Part shown: positions 4,453-63,094 of the stretch, piece by piece
How the letters are laid out: each line of letters starts with the position of its first letter
Numbering within the stretch: position 1 is the stretch's first letter
Source: Amphibacillus jilinensis Y1
Lineage (GTDB): Bacteria; Bacillota; Bacilli; Bacillales; Amphibacillaceae
Assembly (NCBI RefSeq): GCF_000306965.1
Contig: NZ_JH976442.1
Span: 8,415 to 72,414, forward strand
Direction: 5' to 3'
DNA length: 64,000 nucleotides
Notes under the pieces: generated by a model
What the model was told of the DNA's origin: nothing
Databases searched by the model: none
What the model saw: only the letters and a program-made list of their open reading frames with translations
Made by a program: the position numbers and the translations under genes

Positions 4453-4583
4453 AATCAGTGGGCATTTTTGCTCTTTCCCCACTGATTGAAACAACATATT
4501 AACGCCCGTTATTTATCGCCTAAACAGAAGGGATCTGCTCTTTATTTTGAGGCAGGCATTTTATAACGGGTATCTGTGATAAA
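4453..4583 (+). repeat. Dispersed intergenic repeat, copy A
   Basis: First complete member of a repeat family that recurs through the window. Its parts in order are: a 5' hairpin with arms AATCAGTGGG and CCCACTGATT (4453-4487); a spacer; a long stem in which CGCCTAAA pairs with TTTTGAGGC and the outer CCCGTT pairs with AACGGG; and a terminal TATCTGTGATAAA mini-hairpin. In other copies the outer pairing is GTCCGT/ACGGAC, so this copy carries compensating changes. It lies between convergent htrA and the acetyltransferase genes. Confidence 0.8.
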
Positions 4584-5701: not shown

Positions 5702-5832
5702 AATCAGTGGGGTTTTCGTTTTTCTCCTACTGATTGTTAGTTGAATAAATCAGGACATTAGCTCCCGCCTAAATAGATGACTATGCTCTATTTTGAGGCG
5801 GACCGTTTTACGGACGGTTAACTGTGATAAAA
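5702..5832 (+). repeat. Dispersed intergenic repeat, copy B
   Basis: Near-consensus copy: 5' hairpin AATCAGTGG...CTACTGATT, the segment GTTGAATAAATCAGGACATTAG, CCGCCTAAATAG pairing with CTATTTTGAGGCGG, then TTTTACGGACGGTTA and CTGTGATAAAA. It stands in tandem with copy C between divergent genes. Confidence 0.85.
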
Positions 5833-5841
5833 CGAACCTTC

Positions 5842-5980
5842 AATCAGTGAGAGTGTTCTCCTCGCACTGATTGGTAGCTGAGTGAATCAGGACATTAGCG
5901 ACCGTTAACGCCACTCGCTTAATTGACCAACTCTGTCTTTTTTGAGACAGGCGTTTTACGGACGGTTAACTGTGATAAAA
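5842..5980 (+). repeat. Dispersed intergenic repeat, copy C
   Basis: Tandem neighbour of copy B, ten bases apart, same orientation. The central stem is different in sequence but still paired (CTGTCT with AGACAG; AACGCC with GGCGTT), which is a sign of selection on structure. It ends with the common TGTGATAAAA, about 30 bases before the next start codon. Confidence 0.85.
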
Positions 5981-8637: not shown

Positions 8638-8745
8638 TTAATCAATGGGCCATTTCATTCATCTCCCACTGATGGGTCGTTGAGGGAATCAAAACATTAG
8701 CGTCCTAGCTCCGGCTTAAAATAGATGAACTCTGCTCTCTATTTT
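8638..8745 (+). repeat. Dispersed intergenic repeat, copy D (degenerate)
   Basis: Recognisable by ATCAATGGGCC...CCCACTGAT, GTTGAGGGAATCAAAACATTAGCGTCC and ATAGATGAAC...CTCTCTATTTTTTGA. The 3' GGACGG and GTGATAAAA parts are lost. It lies in the promoter region of the glutathione peroxidase gene. Confidence 0.6.
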
Positions 8746-16772: not shown

Positions 16773-18059
16773 TTATGCTGCTTCCGGTGTGTCTGAAATC
16801 ATTGGGATATCCCGAATCATTTGTTCTTCACTGAATGTGCAGTTTCGTGTACCTATTAAGAAAAAGATCTTAATTAATTTCCTGCTTAATGCGATAAAAG
16901 ATTGCTTTCCTGACAATGGATTGGTCGTTCGATAGCGATAATAATGGTGTAGTTGTTTAAAACCATCATTGTGTAATGATAAGGGTCTGGCCACTTGATA
17001 CAATAAGTTTCGCAGTCTTTTACGTCCTCGTTTGGTGATAGTTGTCTGACCCTTGAAGTAACCTGATTGGTTCAACTTTAAATTTAATCCCGCTAATTTA
17101 ATGATTTGGCGTGGATCTTGATAATTCGATAAATCACCAACTTCTGCGAAAAAACCAGCAACAGTAATGGCGCTGACACCTTTGATCGCCATCATCTCTT
17201 CAGAACCAGGGATGTGAAGAACGAGTTCTTTTAGTTGTGCTTCGAGAGCGATTAGTCGTTCTTCCAACGCCTGATACTGATCAAGAAGATAACGAATCTC
17301 TTGGCGTCCCATTTGTAATCCTACTTGAAGGCCCACGCTATTTTCTGCTACTTCTTTTAAGGCCTGAATACGTTTGATTCCCACTGCCCGTGTTGCAGCC
17401 TGTTTGACTTCCATCAGTAAGGTTTCTTCAGATGCCGCTCGAATATCTTCTGGCAAATAACCCTTATCTAGTAAATGGAAGGCAGCTTTTCCTGTCCAAT
17501 CTTTAAAGACCGTCAGAAACTCTGGGAAATAGCGATCTAATGCATTATGCATTTGCGCTTTAATCGACGCTATATCCTCTTGAATCATGTCATAGAGCTT
17601 CATACCTTCTCGCAATTCCGCATAAACATCCTCTGGTAACGTTGGTTCGTGGTAACGACCGTCACGCATGACCTGTGCGATGACTTTCGCATCTTTTGTG
17701 TCATTCTTCGTTGGAGAATCGTCGTCCATTTCCTTGAACCGCTTTACCTTCATCGGATTGACAACCACCACGGAAATGTCTCGCGCCTTCAAATAATAGG
17801 CTAGATTAAGCCAATAGTGGCCAGTAGGTTCCATACCAATTAGTAAATTAGGTCGGTCATGTTGCTCGGACAGGTTTTTGGCCCATTCTATCAACGCTAA
17901 GAACCCTTGATAAGAATTGGTGAATACCAGTCGTTTCACCAGATCTCGACCACGATCATCTATTGCCCGTGCTACATGTTTGTGTTTGGCTACATCAACC
18001 CCAATGATCAAGCTTTGCTCGTTGACTTGTGCTATTCGTTTATTTTGTGTAAAATCCAT
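16773..18059 (-). CDS. IS110-family DEDD transposase
   Basis: RNA-guided recombinase of 428 aa. The N-terminal RuvC-like DEDD domain shows GVDVAKHKH (first Asp), GMEPTGHYW (Glu) and KNDTKDAKV (Asp pair). A coiled-coil linker lies at about 195-280. The C-terminal Transposase_20 domain has IPGSEEMMAIKGVSAITVAGF and a Ser in the LSGKQSFIALSRK region. The frame is intact and full-length, with GGAGGACTTCTAAT before the ATG, so the element may still be active. Confidence 0.93.
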   Translation of the reverse strand: MDFTQNKRIAQVNEQSLIIGVDVAKHKHVARAIDDRGRDLVKRLVFTNSYQGFLALIEWAKNLSEQHDRPNLLIGMEPTGHYWLNLAYYLKARDISVVVVNPMKVKRFKEMDDDSPTKNDTKDAKVIAQVMRDGRYHEPTLPEDVYAELREGMKLYDMIQEDIASIKAQMHNALDRYFPEFLTVFKDWTGKAAFHLLDKGYLPEDIRAASEETLLMEVKQAATRAVGIKRIQALKEVAENSVGLQVGLQMGRQEIRYLLDQYQALEERLIALEAQLKELVLHIPGSEEMMAIKGVSAITVAGFFAEVGDLSNYQDPRQIIKLAGLNLKLNQSGYFKGQTTITKRGRKRLRNLLYQVARPLSLHNDGFKQLHHYYRYRTTNPLSGKQSFIALSRKLIKIFFLIGTRNCTFSEEQMIRDIPMISDTPEAA

Positions 18060-18840: not shown

Positions 18841-19259
18841 AGGTCGGGACAAAAGAGTAACTAAATAAAAAAAATCCGAACATTAATGTCTCAATGTATA
18901 TAGCGCTTCGGCAAAACACTTCGCTTTCACTCTCCCTAGCACAAGGGAGACATCTTGGTAAACGCAGTGTCTCCCTAGCCGTGGGCACGGCTTCGGGCCT
19001 ACAGGATGTAGGTCAGTTAGACGTTGTCCCAGGACGGGACGGGGTTAGTCTAACATTCCTTCACTGTGTGAAGAAGGACACTTCACACGATGGATCGTCA
19101 GCTCGAGCTGTTCTCACAGGATAAGGAAAGCGTCCTCGATCGTACATCGCACGAAGAAAATCGTTCGATATTTTCGAGGAGTCTACGTGTTTTACCTACG
19201 CTTAGTTGAGAATGGTCGGATATTAAATTTCACTATTTAGTTATGTCACAGACTGGTCT
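18841..19259. repeat. Hairpin-array element with about 45-bp terminal inverted repeats
   Basis: Imperfect inverted repeats (GGTCGGGACAAAAGAG...AACTAAATA at the left, TATTTAGTT...GTCACAGACTGG at the right) enclose a run of perfect short hairpins: TCTCCCT/AGGGAGA, GCCGT/ACGGC, CCTACA/TGTAGG (18998-19012), GTTAGAC/GTCTAAC enclosing GTCCC-AGGAC-GGGAC (19016-19054) and CTTCAC/GTGAAG. It is GC-richer than its flanks and has no gene. Parts recur inside repeat copies J and K with compensating changes. It lies between the DUF1456 remnant and the end of the riboflavin operon. Confidence 0.75.
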
Positions 19260-22778: not shown

Positions 22779-22834
22779 GGTTTATTTTACACGATTACTA
22801 AATAAACATACGCAAAAAGCATACATTATTTAAT

Positions 22835-22980
22835 TCTTTTTCTCATCCAGACTTTAACTGTCGGCTTTGGAATTTCACCAAATCCACCTTCTCAGCAGAA
22901 GCTGATCCGGGTCACGGACTTAAGGTATAGCGGCTACCTCTTACCGTCGGTCGGGAATTACACCCTGCCCCAAAAGAATT
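22835..22980 (-). ncRNA. FMN riboswitch (RFN element)
   Basis: Read on the minus strand it has the conserved blocks GGGGCAGGGTGTAATTCCC, GACCGACGGT, AGTCCGTGACCC, GGTGGATTTGGTGAAATTCC, AAGCCGACAGTTAAAGTC and TGGATGAGA. It precedes ribD and is followed by the GAGCCCCAG terminator, so it controls transcription of the riboflavin operon by FMN level. Confidence 0.97.
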
Positions 22981-23069
22981 ATCCTATTCAATTGAGAGTA
23001 TTTTACCACATTAGTAGCCAAAATGCACATAAAAAATTCAATTAACTTCTCCGTTTGATTCTAAAAGCT

Positions 23070-27070: not shown

Positions 27071-27137
27071 AACGCCTCTTTAATCTACTCTCTATTTTGA
27101 GGCGGAAGTTTATGGACAGTTAGCTGTGGTAAAAGCG
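27071..27137 (+). repeat. Dispersed intergenic repeat, fragment F
   Basis: The 3' half only: ACGCCTCTTTAATC, CTCTCTATTTTGAGGCGGAAG, TTTATGGACAGTTAGCTGTGGTAAAA. It lies between divergent pncA and the chemoreceptor gene. Confidence 0.65.
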
Positions 27138-38301: not shown

Positions 38302-38390
38302 AATTGTTAGTTGAGTGAATCAGGCCATTAGCGTCCGTTATCACCCACCTTAATAGATTTAACGTTTTATGGACATTATGTTGATATAAA
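38302..38390 (+). repeat. Dispersed intergenic repeat, copy H (partial)
   Basis: Contains TTAGTTGAGTGAATCAGGCC, ATTAGCGTCCGTTATC, CACCTTAATAGATTT and GTTTTATGGAC. The 5' hairpin and part of the central stem are lost. It lies between convergent genes. Confidence 0.65.
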
Positions 38391-38401
38391 GAATTCGAAA
38401 G

Positions 38402-38525
38402 CTGGGACTGAGACAAAAAACGATGCAAAATACGCACGGTCCACCTTAGAAACAGCGACGTGTTTGTATACTTAGCTAAACGGTCCGGCATTCACCTTTT
38501 CCATCATGTTTTTGTCCCAGCCCTT
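38402..38525. repeat. GGGACAAAA-type inverted-repeat element
   Basis: GCTGGGACTGAGACAAAAA and TTTTTGTCCCAGCCC form the ends of a 124-bp element; inner parts CGATG/CATG and CGGTCC/GGACCG also pair. It resembles the outer arms of 18841-19259 and sits directly downstream of ddl, where it may also terminate transcription. Confidence 0.65.
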
Positions 38526-42888: not shown

Positions 42889-42902
42889 TAAAATGAAACT
42901 TC

Positions 42903-43027
42903 GATTCAGTGGGCATTTTCGTTCTTCGCCCACTGATTTGAACCAAGACATTACTGTCCCACCTAAATAGATTAATATCTGCCCTCTATTTTGAGATAAG
43001 GCTTTACGGACAGTTATCTGTGATAAA
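42903..43027 (+). repeat. Dispersed intergenic repeat, copy I
   Basis: 5' hairpin CAGTGGGCATTTTCGTTCTT and CGCCCACTG, then ACTGTCC pairing with GGACAGT (compensated relative to GTCCGT/ACGGAC), CCTAAATAG, CTCTATTTTGAG and TTATCTGTGATAAA. It lies 15 bases after the amtB stop. Confidence 0.82.
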
Positions 43028-43655: not shown

Positions 43656-43748
43656 ATCACCCCTCCTTTTCAATCTACATTACAGATATATTAACCCTTA
43701 TCGAAACGCTTTAAACATTAACCACATGATGAAAACGAAACTTCAACC

Positions 43749-43978
43749 TTCAATCGGTGAGCTGGGAGACTACAAGATGTAGGTCATGCAGACGTTGCCA
43801 CAGGACGTGGCGATCTTAGTCTGTAACCCTTCTTAAGGACGTGCCGGTTCTAGTCTGTAATCCTTCTGCATTTTTAGTCTACGACCTTACTTAGTTGAGT
43901 GAATCAGCCCATTAGCACCCTCTTCGAAAGATTGAACGCTACTCTAGGTGTTTTACGCGTCATTATCTGCGAAAAATG
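43749..43978 (+). repeat. Dispersed intergenic repeat, copy J with inserted hairpin array
   Basis: Starts with CAATCGGTGAG (5' arm), then instead of the simple hairpin holds GACTACA/TGTAGGTC (43768-43785), CAGAC/GTCTG enclosing GCCAC-AGGAC-GTGGC (43789-43823), further TTAGTCTACGACCTTAC units, and then resumes with TTAGTTGAGTGAATCAGCCC, ATTAGCACC and TTATCTGCGAAAAA. Its 3' end overlaps the last codons of thiE. Confidence 0.7.
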
Positions 43979-46333: not shown

Positions 46334-46370
46334 TCTTTTTAGATAAAGAAAGGTAGTCTATGACAACGCC

Positions 46371-46460
46371 CCACTTCCCTCCGTTGGTACTAGCCAAATC
46401 AGGTTCAAAGGGACCAAAGAAAAAACTTTATCTCAGCGTTTAATACGCGCCCCTAGTGGA
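46371..46460 (-). ncRNA. TPP riboswitch (THI element)
   Basis: Minus strand shows the conserved blocks TCCACTAGGGGCGC, CGCTGAGATAAAG, CCCTTTGAACCTGATTTGG, CTAGTACCAACGGAGGGAAG and the closing AGTGG. It lies upstream of thiD with a terminator between, so thiDME should be repressed by TPP. Confidence 0.96.
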
Positions 46461-46518
46461 TAGATATATGATTATATTTACACTAAAACACTTATCTCTT
46501 ATTCTGTCAAACTATTCA

Positions 46519-47204: not shown

Positions 47205-47411
47205 TTAGCGGACGAGGTCTACAAGAAGTGGCGGTCTTATTCTGTAATCCTTCTTAAAGATGTGAAGCTTTTAGTCTACGATCTTACCCATCCTCCGATT
47301 GATCGTTGGGCGGATCAGAAGATTAACATGCGTTATCTCCCACCTAAACAGATTTTTTCTCTTCTCTATTTTAGGACTAACGCTTTACAGATACTTATCT
47401 GTGATAAAAAT
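47205..47411 (+). repeat. Dispersed intergenic repeat, copy K with hairpin-array remnant
   Basis: GAGGTCTACAAGAAGTGGCG, TCTTATTCTGTAATCCTTC and TTTTAGTCTACGATCTTAC resemble the array in copy J. The repeat core follows with GTTATCTCCCACCTAAACAG, TTCTCTATTTTAGGA, GCTTTACAG and TTATCTGTGATAAAAA. It lies between lepB and the flavodoxin gene. Confidence 0.65.
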
Positions 47412-55106: not shown

Positions 55107-56279
55107 GTGAATAACTTTATCTTTAACAACCCTACAAAACTTATTTTTGGTAAGGATATGTTAAACCATTTAAAAGAAGAGATCCCCACTTATGGTAACC
55201 GTGTGCTACTCGTTTATGGTGGAGGTAGCATCAAGCGCAATGGACTCTACCAGGAAGTGCTTGATCTTTTAAATGAAATAAACGCTGAAATATTTGAGTT
55301 ATCAGGTGTCGAACCAAACCCACGCGTCACGACAGCGCGTAAGGGGATTGAGATCTGCAAAAATGAGCAAATTGATTTTATCTTAGCTGTTGGTGGTGGA
55401 AGCACAATCGACTGTGTCAAAGCTATTGCAGCTGGCGCCAAATCGGAGCATGACATCTGGGATATTGTTACAAAAAAATATCAAGCTAAGGATGCATTGC
55501 CGTTCGGAACTGTCCTTACGTTAGCAGCAACTGGTTCGGAAATGAATGCAGGCTCGGTGATTACGAATTGGGAAACAAAAGAAAAGCATGGATGGGGAAG
55601 TGCGGTCACTTATCCTAGATTTTCTATTTTAGATCCTACATATACATATACTATCCCACGCGATCAGACTGTATATGGGATCGTTGATATGATGTCACAT
55701 GCACTTGAACATTATTTCCATCACGAAACCAATACGCCATTTCAAGATCGGATGGTAGAAGGCTTATTAAAAACAGTAATCGAAACGAGCCCTAAACTGC
55801 TAGCTGACCTTGAAAATTACCAGCATCGTGCTACTATTTTATACTGTGGGACAATGGCTTTAAATGGGATGGTCAATATGGGCTATCAAGGCGATTGGGC
55901 AACACATAACTTAGAGCACGCTGTTTCTGCAGTTCACGACATTCCTCACGGCGGTGGGCTGGCTATTTTATTCCCAAACTGGATGAAGCACGTGCTAGAT
56001 GAGAACGTGGCACGTTTCAAAAAATTCGCCGAGCGCGTCTTTGACATTGAACAAGGTGCCCTTTCGGATCGCGAGGTTGCTATCAAAGGAATAGACGCTC
56101 TAAGCGATTTCTGGAAGTCAATCGGAGCGCCAAGTCGATTAGCAGATTATAATATTAATGAAGAAACCATTGCAGAAATGGCAGACAAAACAGTCACAGC
56201 GCATGCAAGCTTTGGTAATTTTAAAAAGCTAACACGCGAGGACTCTGTTGCGATTTATCAAGCAAGTCTAATCGAGTAG
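55107..56279 (+). CDS. Iron-containing alcohol dehydrogenase (butanol dehydrogenase/YqhD type)
   Basis: NAD(P)H-dependent alcohol/aldehyde oxidoreductase of 390 aa. It has [11 protein letters not shown] (NADPH-type glycine motif), [20 protein letters not shown], the metal ligands in [38 protein letters not shown]. Start GTG 55107 follows AAGGAGGCG. The last codons (Ile-Glu-stop) come from the 3' end of a group II intron remnant inserted at the gene end; the decayed paralog at 57812 ends at ...KASL. It likely reduces aldehydes in fermentation. Confidence 0.92.
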
Positions 56280-56680
56280 GGGGGTGATTAACCCCCGTCC
56301 CCTCACACCACCGTACATACCGTTCGGTATACGGCGGTTTCATTTAAGTCCAACGTGCAGTTTCGTATCTACCAAATAGACTTTTAAGTTCTTGACCTGC
56401 CCCCCAGTATTGATTATTAAGTGCTCGACCTAATATCGGGCTATGTGACGTCCGTCAATAGCCTTTCTCGTGTTCCCCCATTCCCATGCTTTACCTGGTT
56501 CAATACCACAACGAATCAGATTTTTCTTTTTCGTTGTGGTTTTCTTCCATTCTTTCCACCGAATCATTCGCAACCTTCTACTCACCCAGGCATCTAGCGC
56601 TTTGAATATAGAGGGGGGGTTCTGCTAATTGGTAATAACCTAGCCATCCCACTAAGTATTGATTAAGTGTCTCACTCCTT
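56271..56680 (-). mobile_element. Group II intron remnant (domains V-VI and maturase C-terminus)
   Basis: On the minus strand AACCGCCGTATACCG and CGGTATGTACGGTGGTG (about 56302-56341) form domain V. GGACGGGGGTTAATCACCCCC plus CTACTCGAT forms domain VI and the 3' end at about 56271. Upstream, 56345-56670 translates in pieces as LNQYLVGWLGYYQLAE, KALDAWVSRRLRMIRWKEWK, LIRCGIEPGKAWEWGNTRKA and LGRALNNQYW...KSLFGRYETARWT, the maturase/X domain of intron reverse transcriptases, with at least two frameshifts. The RT domain and 5' intron part are gone. Confidence 0.85.
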
Positions 56681-57958: not shown

Positions 57959-58106
57959 TTCAACCAGCAGCCGTTTTCGCGCTTCTCACATTGATTGGTA
58001 GTTGAGCGAAAAAGGACATTAGCATCCGCTAACACCCATTATAGATGGTCTCTTCCCACTATTTTCAGATGGGTGTTTTACCAACAGCTATCTATAGCTA
58101 TGAAAA
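57959..58106 (+). repeat. Dispersed intergenic repeat, copy M
   Basis: CAACCAGCAGCCGTTTTCG, CACATTGATTGGTAGTTGAG, ACATTAGCATCCG, then ACACCCAT pairing with ATGGGTGT and a terminal AGCTAT/ATAGCT mini-hairpin. Both pairings are changed on both sides relative to other copies. Confidence 0.7.
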
Positions 58107-62948: not shown

Positions 62949-63094
62949 CTTCAATCCGAGGCAATTTCGTTGTTCTCCTCCTGATTGCTAATTGCGTGAA
63001 TCAGGACATTAGCATCCGTTAGCTCCCGCCTAAATAGATTATATCTACTCTCTATTTTTAGGCGGGCATTTGACGGACGGCTATATGTGATAAA
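62949..63094 (+). repeat. Dispersed intergenic repeat, copy N
   Basis: Near-consensus 3' two-thirds: TGATTGCTAATTGCGTGAAT, CAGGACATTAGCATCCGTTAG, CCCGCCTAAATAG pairing with CTATTTTTAGGCGGG, TTTGACGGACGGCTATATG and GTGATAAAA. The 5' hairpin (TCAATCCGAGG...CCTCCTGATT) is weaker. Confidence 0.82.

Follow-up and report, generated by a model that had tools for sequence, protein, structure and literature searches.

The hairpin-rich element at positions 18841-19259 of the 64,000-nucleotide stretch of Amphibacillus jilinensis Y1 DNA analysed here (the window) is probably a non-autonomous mobile repeat carrying a Bacillaceae-1 module, its palindromes being kept either for mobilisation as folded DNA or for tolerance of the insertion. 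On the minus strand, positions 18998-19065 match Bacillaceae-1 RNA (Rfam RF01690) with 66.9 bits over model positions 1-67 of 67. A second unit, located in a repeat designated copy J, matches at 43769-43835, also on the minus strand, with 71 bits over positions 1-67 of 67. The curated gathering cut-off of the family is 35 bits, and both units fit the full 67-position model, loops and internal loop included. The initial annotation of this DNA knew of no described family with such a layout and had set identity with an Rfam element as the observation that would speak against it; such an identity is what was found. By sequence, the AGGAC-loop hairpins can firmly be assigned to an already known, poorly understood family, and the novelty lies in the mobile-repeat context of this RNA family, not in the family itself. 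While Rfam describes a 67-nt small RNA, the module resides here within longer mobile repeats that occur dozens of times, and a sister species can have the corresponding repeat without it. Bacillaceae-1 was listed by Weinberg et al. in 2010 as a non-cis-regulatory RNA (PMC2864571), and BSGatlas contains eight copies in B. subtilis that had not been annotated before (PMC8208703).

The larger hairpin of the focal unit (19016-19054) reads GTTAGAC-gtt-GTCCC-AGGAC-GGGAC-ggggtta-GTCTAAC and consists of a 7-bp stem, an internal loop (GTT/GGGGTTA), and a 5-bp stem. Its counterpart in copy J (43788-43824) reads GCAGAC-gtt-GCCAC-AGGAC-GTGGC-gatctta-GTCTGT. As first described, both units are present, their AGGAC loops are identical, and the stem differences are paired changes. 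The units are not, however, perfect nested hairpins: each is interrupted by a conserved internal loop of 3 x 7 nt (GTT / GNNCTTA), which the earlier description omitted. The small hairpin CTACA-GGA-TGTAG, said to precede both units, precedes the first, whereas copy J has CTACA-AGA-TGTAG. AGGAC on the plus strand of the larger hairpin corresponds to GUCCU on the minus strand; the focal unit thus displays hairpin loops GUCCU and AUCCU on the minus strand and two GGA-containing hairpin loops on the plus strand, and the small hairpin loop of copy J is AUCUU on the RF01690 strand. The loop consensus of the family, which we take to be RUCCU, the reverse complement of AGGAY, agrees with the alignment obtained here. 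When compared with dinucleotide shuffles, folding of the entire 419-nt element gives z-scores of -5.2 (plus strand) and -7.1 (minus strand), none of 100 shuffles being equally good. Taken as a whole, the initial annotation is partly confirmed in its observation and partly supported in its interpretation; what it missed is that the element is a dispersed repeat of mobile type in which the hairpins form one removable module.

The element, termed type C, is a gene-less mosaic located 3′ of ribH; since it lies downstream of ribH on the minus strand, its transcription by read-through is plausible. Its left inverted end (18846-18893, plus strand, GGGACAAAAGNGTAAC...ATCCGAACATT) aligns with the right end (19209-19256, minus strand) as a gapped complement. 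These inverted ends, already noted in the initial annotation, are real: the gapped alignment scores 18.5 as compared to 9.4 +/- 1.7 (maximum 17.0) for shuffles, and the ends recur at other copies. Across the family, imperfect inverted ends of ~45 bp enclose variable inner modules in copies of 120-420 bp, too short for a transposase gene. The Bacillaceae-1 hairpins lie in a 124-bp module (18984-19107, ends ambiguous by ~4 bp at a CGTG-like repeat). Type C is regarded as a mosaic because its other parts are found alone in many genomes of the order. Its positions ~266-366 (window ~19106-19206), without Bacillaceae-1, match dispersed sequences in many of these genomes, and this part looks like an independent, undescribed repeat module.

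Dispersal of the hairpins, which the initial annotation had anticipated in the form of other copies, is extensive: RF01690 has 79 matches in the 3.8-Mb genome of A. jilinensis (two of them assembly duplicates) and 132 in A. cookii. The A. jilinensis copies are almost all intergenic and reside in short repeats without genes, of which there are at least two families; their orientation relative to genes, taken as a test for an RNA gene in this genome, revealed no significant pattern. Copy J had been considered a second copy of the 420-bp element but is a member of another repeat family, type A, with only the ~70-bp hairpin module in common with the element at 18841-19259. Type A is commoner than type C. 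An alignment of 43 copies reveals sharp ends, ACGAACCTTCAATCAG...GGTTATCTGTG, with ATAAA adjoining on both sides; this pentanucleotide precedes the 5′ end in 13 of 20 copies and follows the 3′ end in 20 of 26. No clear inverted ends exist in type A, but a hairpin at the 3′ end, TTATC-TGT-GATAA, is clear, a palindrome at the 5′ end being less so. A third hairpin subtype (CCAACAGGATGTTGG...ACACAAGCG) occurs in inverted orientation within some type A copies.

Type A is represented in the window by copy J (43745-43975, plus strand, 3′ end approximate), a copy without RF01690 (42890-43022, plus strand), a partial copy at 47221-47403 (plus strand), and further partial copies at 4483-4578, 5726-5826, 5865-5974, 8665-8745, 27084-27128, 38303-38360, 57989-58093, and 62981-63089. 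All type A matches between 4483 and 63089 lie on the plus strand except for one 26-bp piece, in agreement with the genome-wide orientation bias described below. At ~38395-38525 lies a further short repeat, bounded by inverted GCTGGGACTGAGACAAAAAAC / GTTTTTGTCCCAGCCC ends, which is shorter in A. cookii. Other matches in the window comprise an FMN riboswitch preceding the rib operon (22831-22981), a TPP riboswitch (46359-46464), and a group II intron domain (56271-56339). Outside Amphibacillus, Kurthia sibirica contains eight same-strand Bacillaceae-1 copies within 4 kb (L139 113-3729), located both around and within an apparently decayed RHS/YD-repeat gene region.

Comparison with the sister species A. 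cookii, whose contig 12 is syntenic with the window at ~90% identity, reveals both insertion and module loss. At the ribH site, a type C element is present in both species, and that of A. cookii is devoid of the 124 bp holding the RF01690 hairpins; the size of the array is variable, as the initial annotation had envisaged. At the site of copy J, A. cookii keeps only the outer type A parts and no hairpin module, and opposite the copy at 42890-43022 it displays a clean empty site with a single ATAAA. The window together with a syntenic block of 200 kb contains 15 simple indels, six of which represent type A insertions in A. jilinensis; the corresponding empty sites contain an exact ATAAA/TTTAT in five cases and one with a single mismatch in the sixth. 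A 244-bp type A copy with RF01690 (G000:C1:290560) exemplifies the pattern: the occupied site reads ATCAT[TTTAT]CACAGATAACC...GAAGGTTCGT[TTTAT]AGCATT and the empty site of A. cookii ATCAT[TTTAT]AGCATT. A target duplication and a target plus an element end would give this same sequence. At another site, a type C copy of A. cookii harbors within it an RF01690-bearing type A copy, and A. jilinensis has neither. In a sample of A. cookii RF01690 regions taken separately from the 200-kb block, the flanks of only one matched an RF01690 site of A. jilinensis. Insertion of type A is well supported by these sequence comparisons. Type C is likely to be mobile as well, although no clean empty site for type C alone was found, the focal element included, which is common to both species. 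An IS110-family transposase gene (DEDD_Tnp_IS110, Transposase_20) at 16773-18059 of the window is absent from the orthologous A. cookii site (~18187). Three near-identical long copies, that of the window and those at G000:C9:99698 (L110 4699-5703) and G000:C13:38003 (L111 7053-8004), were considered as recent duplications including ribH, a reading that was rejected. The two outside the window terminate in NNNNNNNNNN, with runs of 10 N, and probably arose as artefacts of gap filling in the assembly; they were therefore left out as evidence for mobility, and the ribH copy number in the assembly is unreliable.

In the explanation we favor, RF01690 would be one of several removable internal modules of a gene-less mobile type C repeat. 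The same module is carried by the commoner type A family, which inserts at the short AT-rich site ATAAA/TTTAT: an empty site holds a single pentanucleotide, and an occupied one has it on either side of the element. A transposase would be supplied in trans. The module would often be lost by deletion; where hairpins persist, they would most likely be kept because the palindromes are needed as folded DNA for mobilisation, or alternatively because a compact hairpin makes insertion into intergenic regions or rRNA spacers tolerable. Both the trans-acting enzyme and the notion that selection acts on folded DNA instead of RNA are inferred. A search for a partner with the type C left-end pattern matched almost only miniature copies, and a motif scan of ~0.58 Mb of the A. 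jilinensis genome revealed no IS200-type TnpA.

The pairing pattern of the hairpins is consistent with this explanation. Among 37 diverse sequences, 151 alignment cells have both partners of a pair changed, as compared to only 3 with a one-sided change, which bears out the initial proposal of a structured nucleic acid with a conserved loop. In a broader set of near-intact stems, G-U pairs amount to 0.5% when the Rfam strand is read and to 1.9% for the AGGAC strand, much of the excess on the latter being supplied by the outer pairs. Ten TPP riboswitches of the same order, used as a control, contain 5.4% G-U and no A-C. The control values derive from Infernal alignments, as MAFFT plus RNAalifold did not recover the TPP riboswitch fold; the test is small, and its counts are non-independent events without phylogenetic correction. 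Near-pure Watson-Crick paired changes weakly favor base pairing in DNA, or mutation that corrects palindromes, over selection acting on RNA. They would fit selection for a DNA hairpin at least as well as selection for an RNA.

Strand usage at rRNA operons bears on whether the motif acts as RNA. RF01690 matches were compared with the positions of 5S genes in nine genomes of the order with few contigs, from other genera. Of 41 copies no farther from a 5S gene than an rRNA operon extends, all 41 share the strand of the rRNA; they occupy 16S leader, 16S-23S, 23S-5S, and post-5S spacers. Genome G054 adds six of six rRNA-linked copies and Aquibacillus sediminis one copy directly before 16S, all on the same strand, whereas a single reversed copy adjoins a 16S gene (L320). 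As copies within one genome are not independent, these counts reduce, by genus and spacer position, to ~12 same-strand sites versus one. This rule is also compatible with an RNA function, and the motif could be an rRNA-spacer processing or antitermination element acting on the Rfam strand, from which the dispersed copies would be escaped derivatives. In several genera, copies directly precede 16S, occupy the 16S-23S or 23S-5S spacer, or follow 5S, and in the distance survey their strand is invariably that of the rRNA. This speaks for such a signal, but we consider it improbable: the operon position differs among genera, many genomes have dispersed copies only, roughly half of the order's genomes are devoid of RF01690, and G-U pairs are not enriched on the Rfam strand. 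Moreover, an insertion bias linked to replication predicts the same strand. rRNA operons are leading-strand genes. In A. jilinensis, the same RF01690 strand tends to be the G-rich strand (34 of 47 type A sites, p = 0.003), so that one replication-linked bias could explain both this tendency and the rRNA strand rule, selection on orientation being the alternative.

The RNA of the rRNA-linked strand exposes UCCU rather than GGA in its loops, which argues against the opposite strand as a CsrA-binding RNA. According to that published hypothesis (PMC4333381), whose authors point to the reverse complement of Bacillaceae-1, the original discoverers having been unsure of the strand, CAGGAYG hairpin loops of an AGGAC-strand transcript would titrate CsrA as CsrB does. 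In favor of this hypothesis, CAGGACG and CAGGATG loops predominate in the A. jilinensis genome, which has csrA, and G-U pairs are commoner on the AGGAC strand. Yet we regard a CsrA sponge as very unlikely. The small-hairpin loop is often ACGAY, without GGA, in genomes with csrA, and all 41 copies near 5S genes, against the one reversed 16S-adjacent copy, have the UCCU-loop orientation. RF01690 occurs in 3 of 14 genomes lacking csrA as compared to 118 of 236 with it (p = 0.052, confounded by phylogeny), but as csrA is present in 236 of the 250 genomes of the order, and thus nearly universal, such co-occurrence says little. The csrA-less genomes themselves disagree: G054, a genome with 7% contamination, retains CAGGACG loops in its rRNA spacers, while none of the ten copies in G053 has GGA in the larger loop. 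In these ten (L292, L296, L300, L303, L306, L309, L311, L313, L315, L317), the stems are kept and the larger-loop GGA is lost.

A more specific version of the mobile-repeat explanation relates type A, in the manner of PATEs, to IS200/IS605 elements and has it mobilised by a TnpA that reads the hairpins and the pentanucleotide on the lagging-strand template. The specific 5-nt target at both ends without clear inverted ends, the 3′-end hairpin, and the strand bias relative to GC skew all accord with single-strand transposition. The lagging strand is the target of IS608 and ISDra2 (PMC6006769), and type A resembles PATEs (PMC3119063) in the absence of clear inverted ends, the 3′-end palindrome, the short fixed target, and core deletions between strains or species. 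A PATE would further be expected to have near-terminal palindromes at both ends and no target duplication. Still, this version appears rather unlikely: the scan of ~0.58 Mb contained neither TnpA nor a related element, an ordinary transposase making a 5-bp target duplication leaves the same sequence, the mechanism does not suit type C with its inverted ends, and the inner hairpin modules of type A are much richer than those of PATEs.

Among other known systems, type C resembles MITEs in being short, gene-less, multicopy, and intergenic with inverted ends but differs from them in having no established parent transposon or target duplication. CsrB and CsrC share CAGGAYG hairpin loops with the plus strand of the window; however, each is one multi-site RNA gene, whereas the sequences described here are dispersed repeats whose rRNA-linked copies are transcribed on the other strand. 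By description, stem-loop repeat families such as the B. cereus-group repeat bcr1 and the B. halodurans repeat Bhal-1 are likewise multicopy, intergenic, structured repeats of Bacillaceae (PMC2267715), and the size and copy number of Bhal-1 (74 bp, 36 copies) raise the possibility that it might be RF01690. REP elements are defined as 20-40 bp palindromes, one end of which bears a GTAG or CGTC tag left unpaired (PMC3733652); by this definition the present repeats differ, since they are much longer and have CGTC at a loop. A literature search for an intergenic or rRNA-spacer repeat of such a kind in Bacillaceae retrieved nothing.

A broader proposal, which we put forward tentatively and with some doubt, is that Bacillaceae-1 is not a family of small RNA genes but a hairpin module of widespread mobile DNA, possibly transposed in single-stranded form, that has colonised the intergenic regions and rRNA spacers of many Bacillales in a preferred orientation to replication. 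Since 2010, RF01690 has stood as a small RNA of unknown function (PMC2864571). It now gains a concrete genomic biology as a mobile-repeat module for which insertion sites and empty alleles can be named and whose orientation follows a rule, and the question of its strand becomes testable. If mobile DNA explains the family, the small RNA annotation in many Bacillales genomes would need revising, and RF01690 would be an example of strong covariation without a necessary RNA function.
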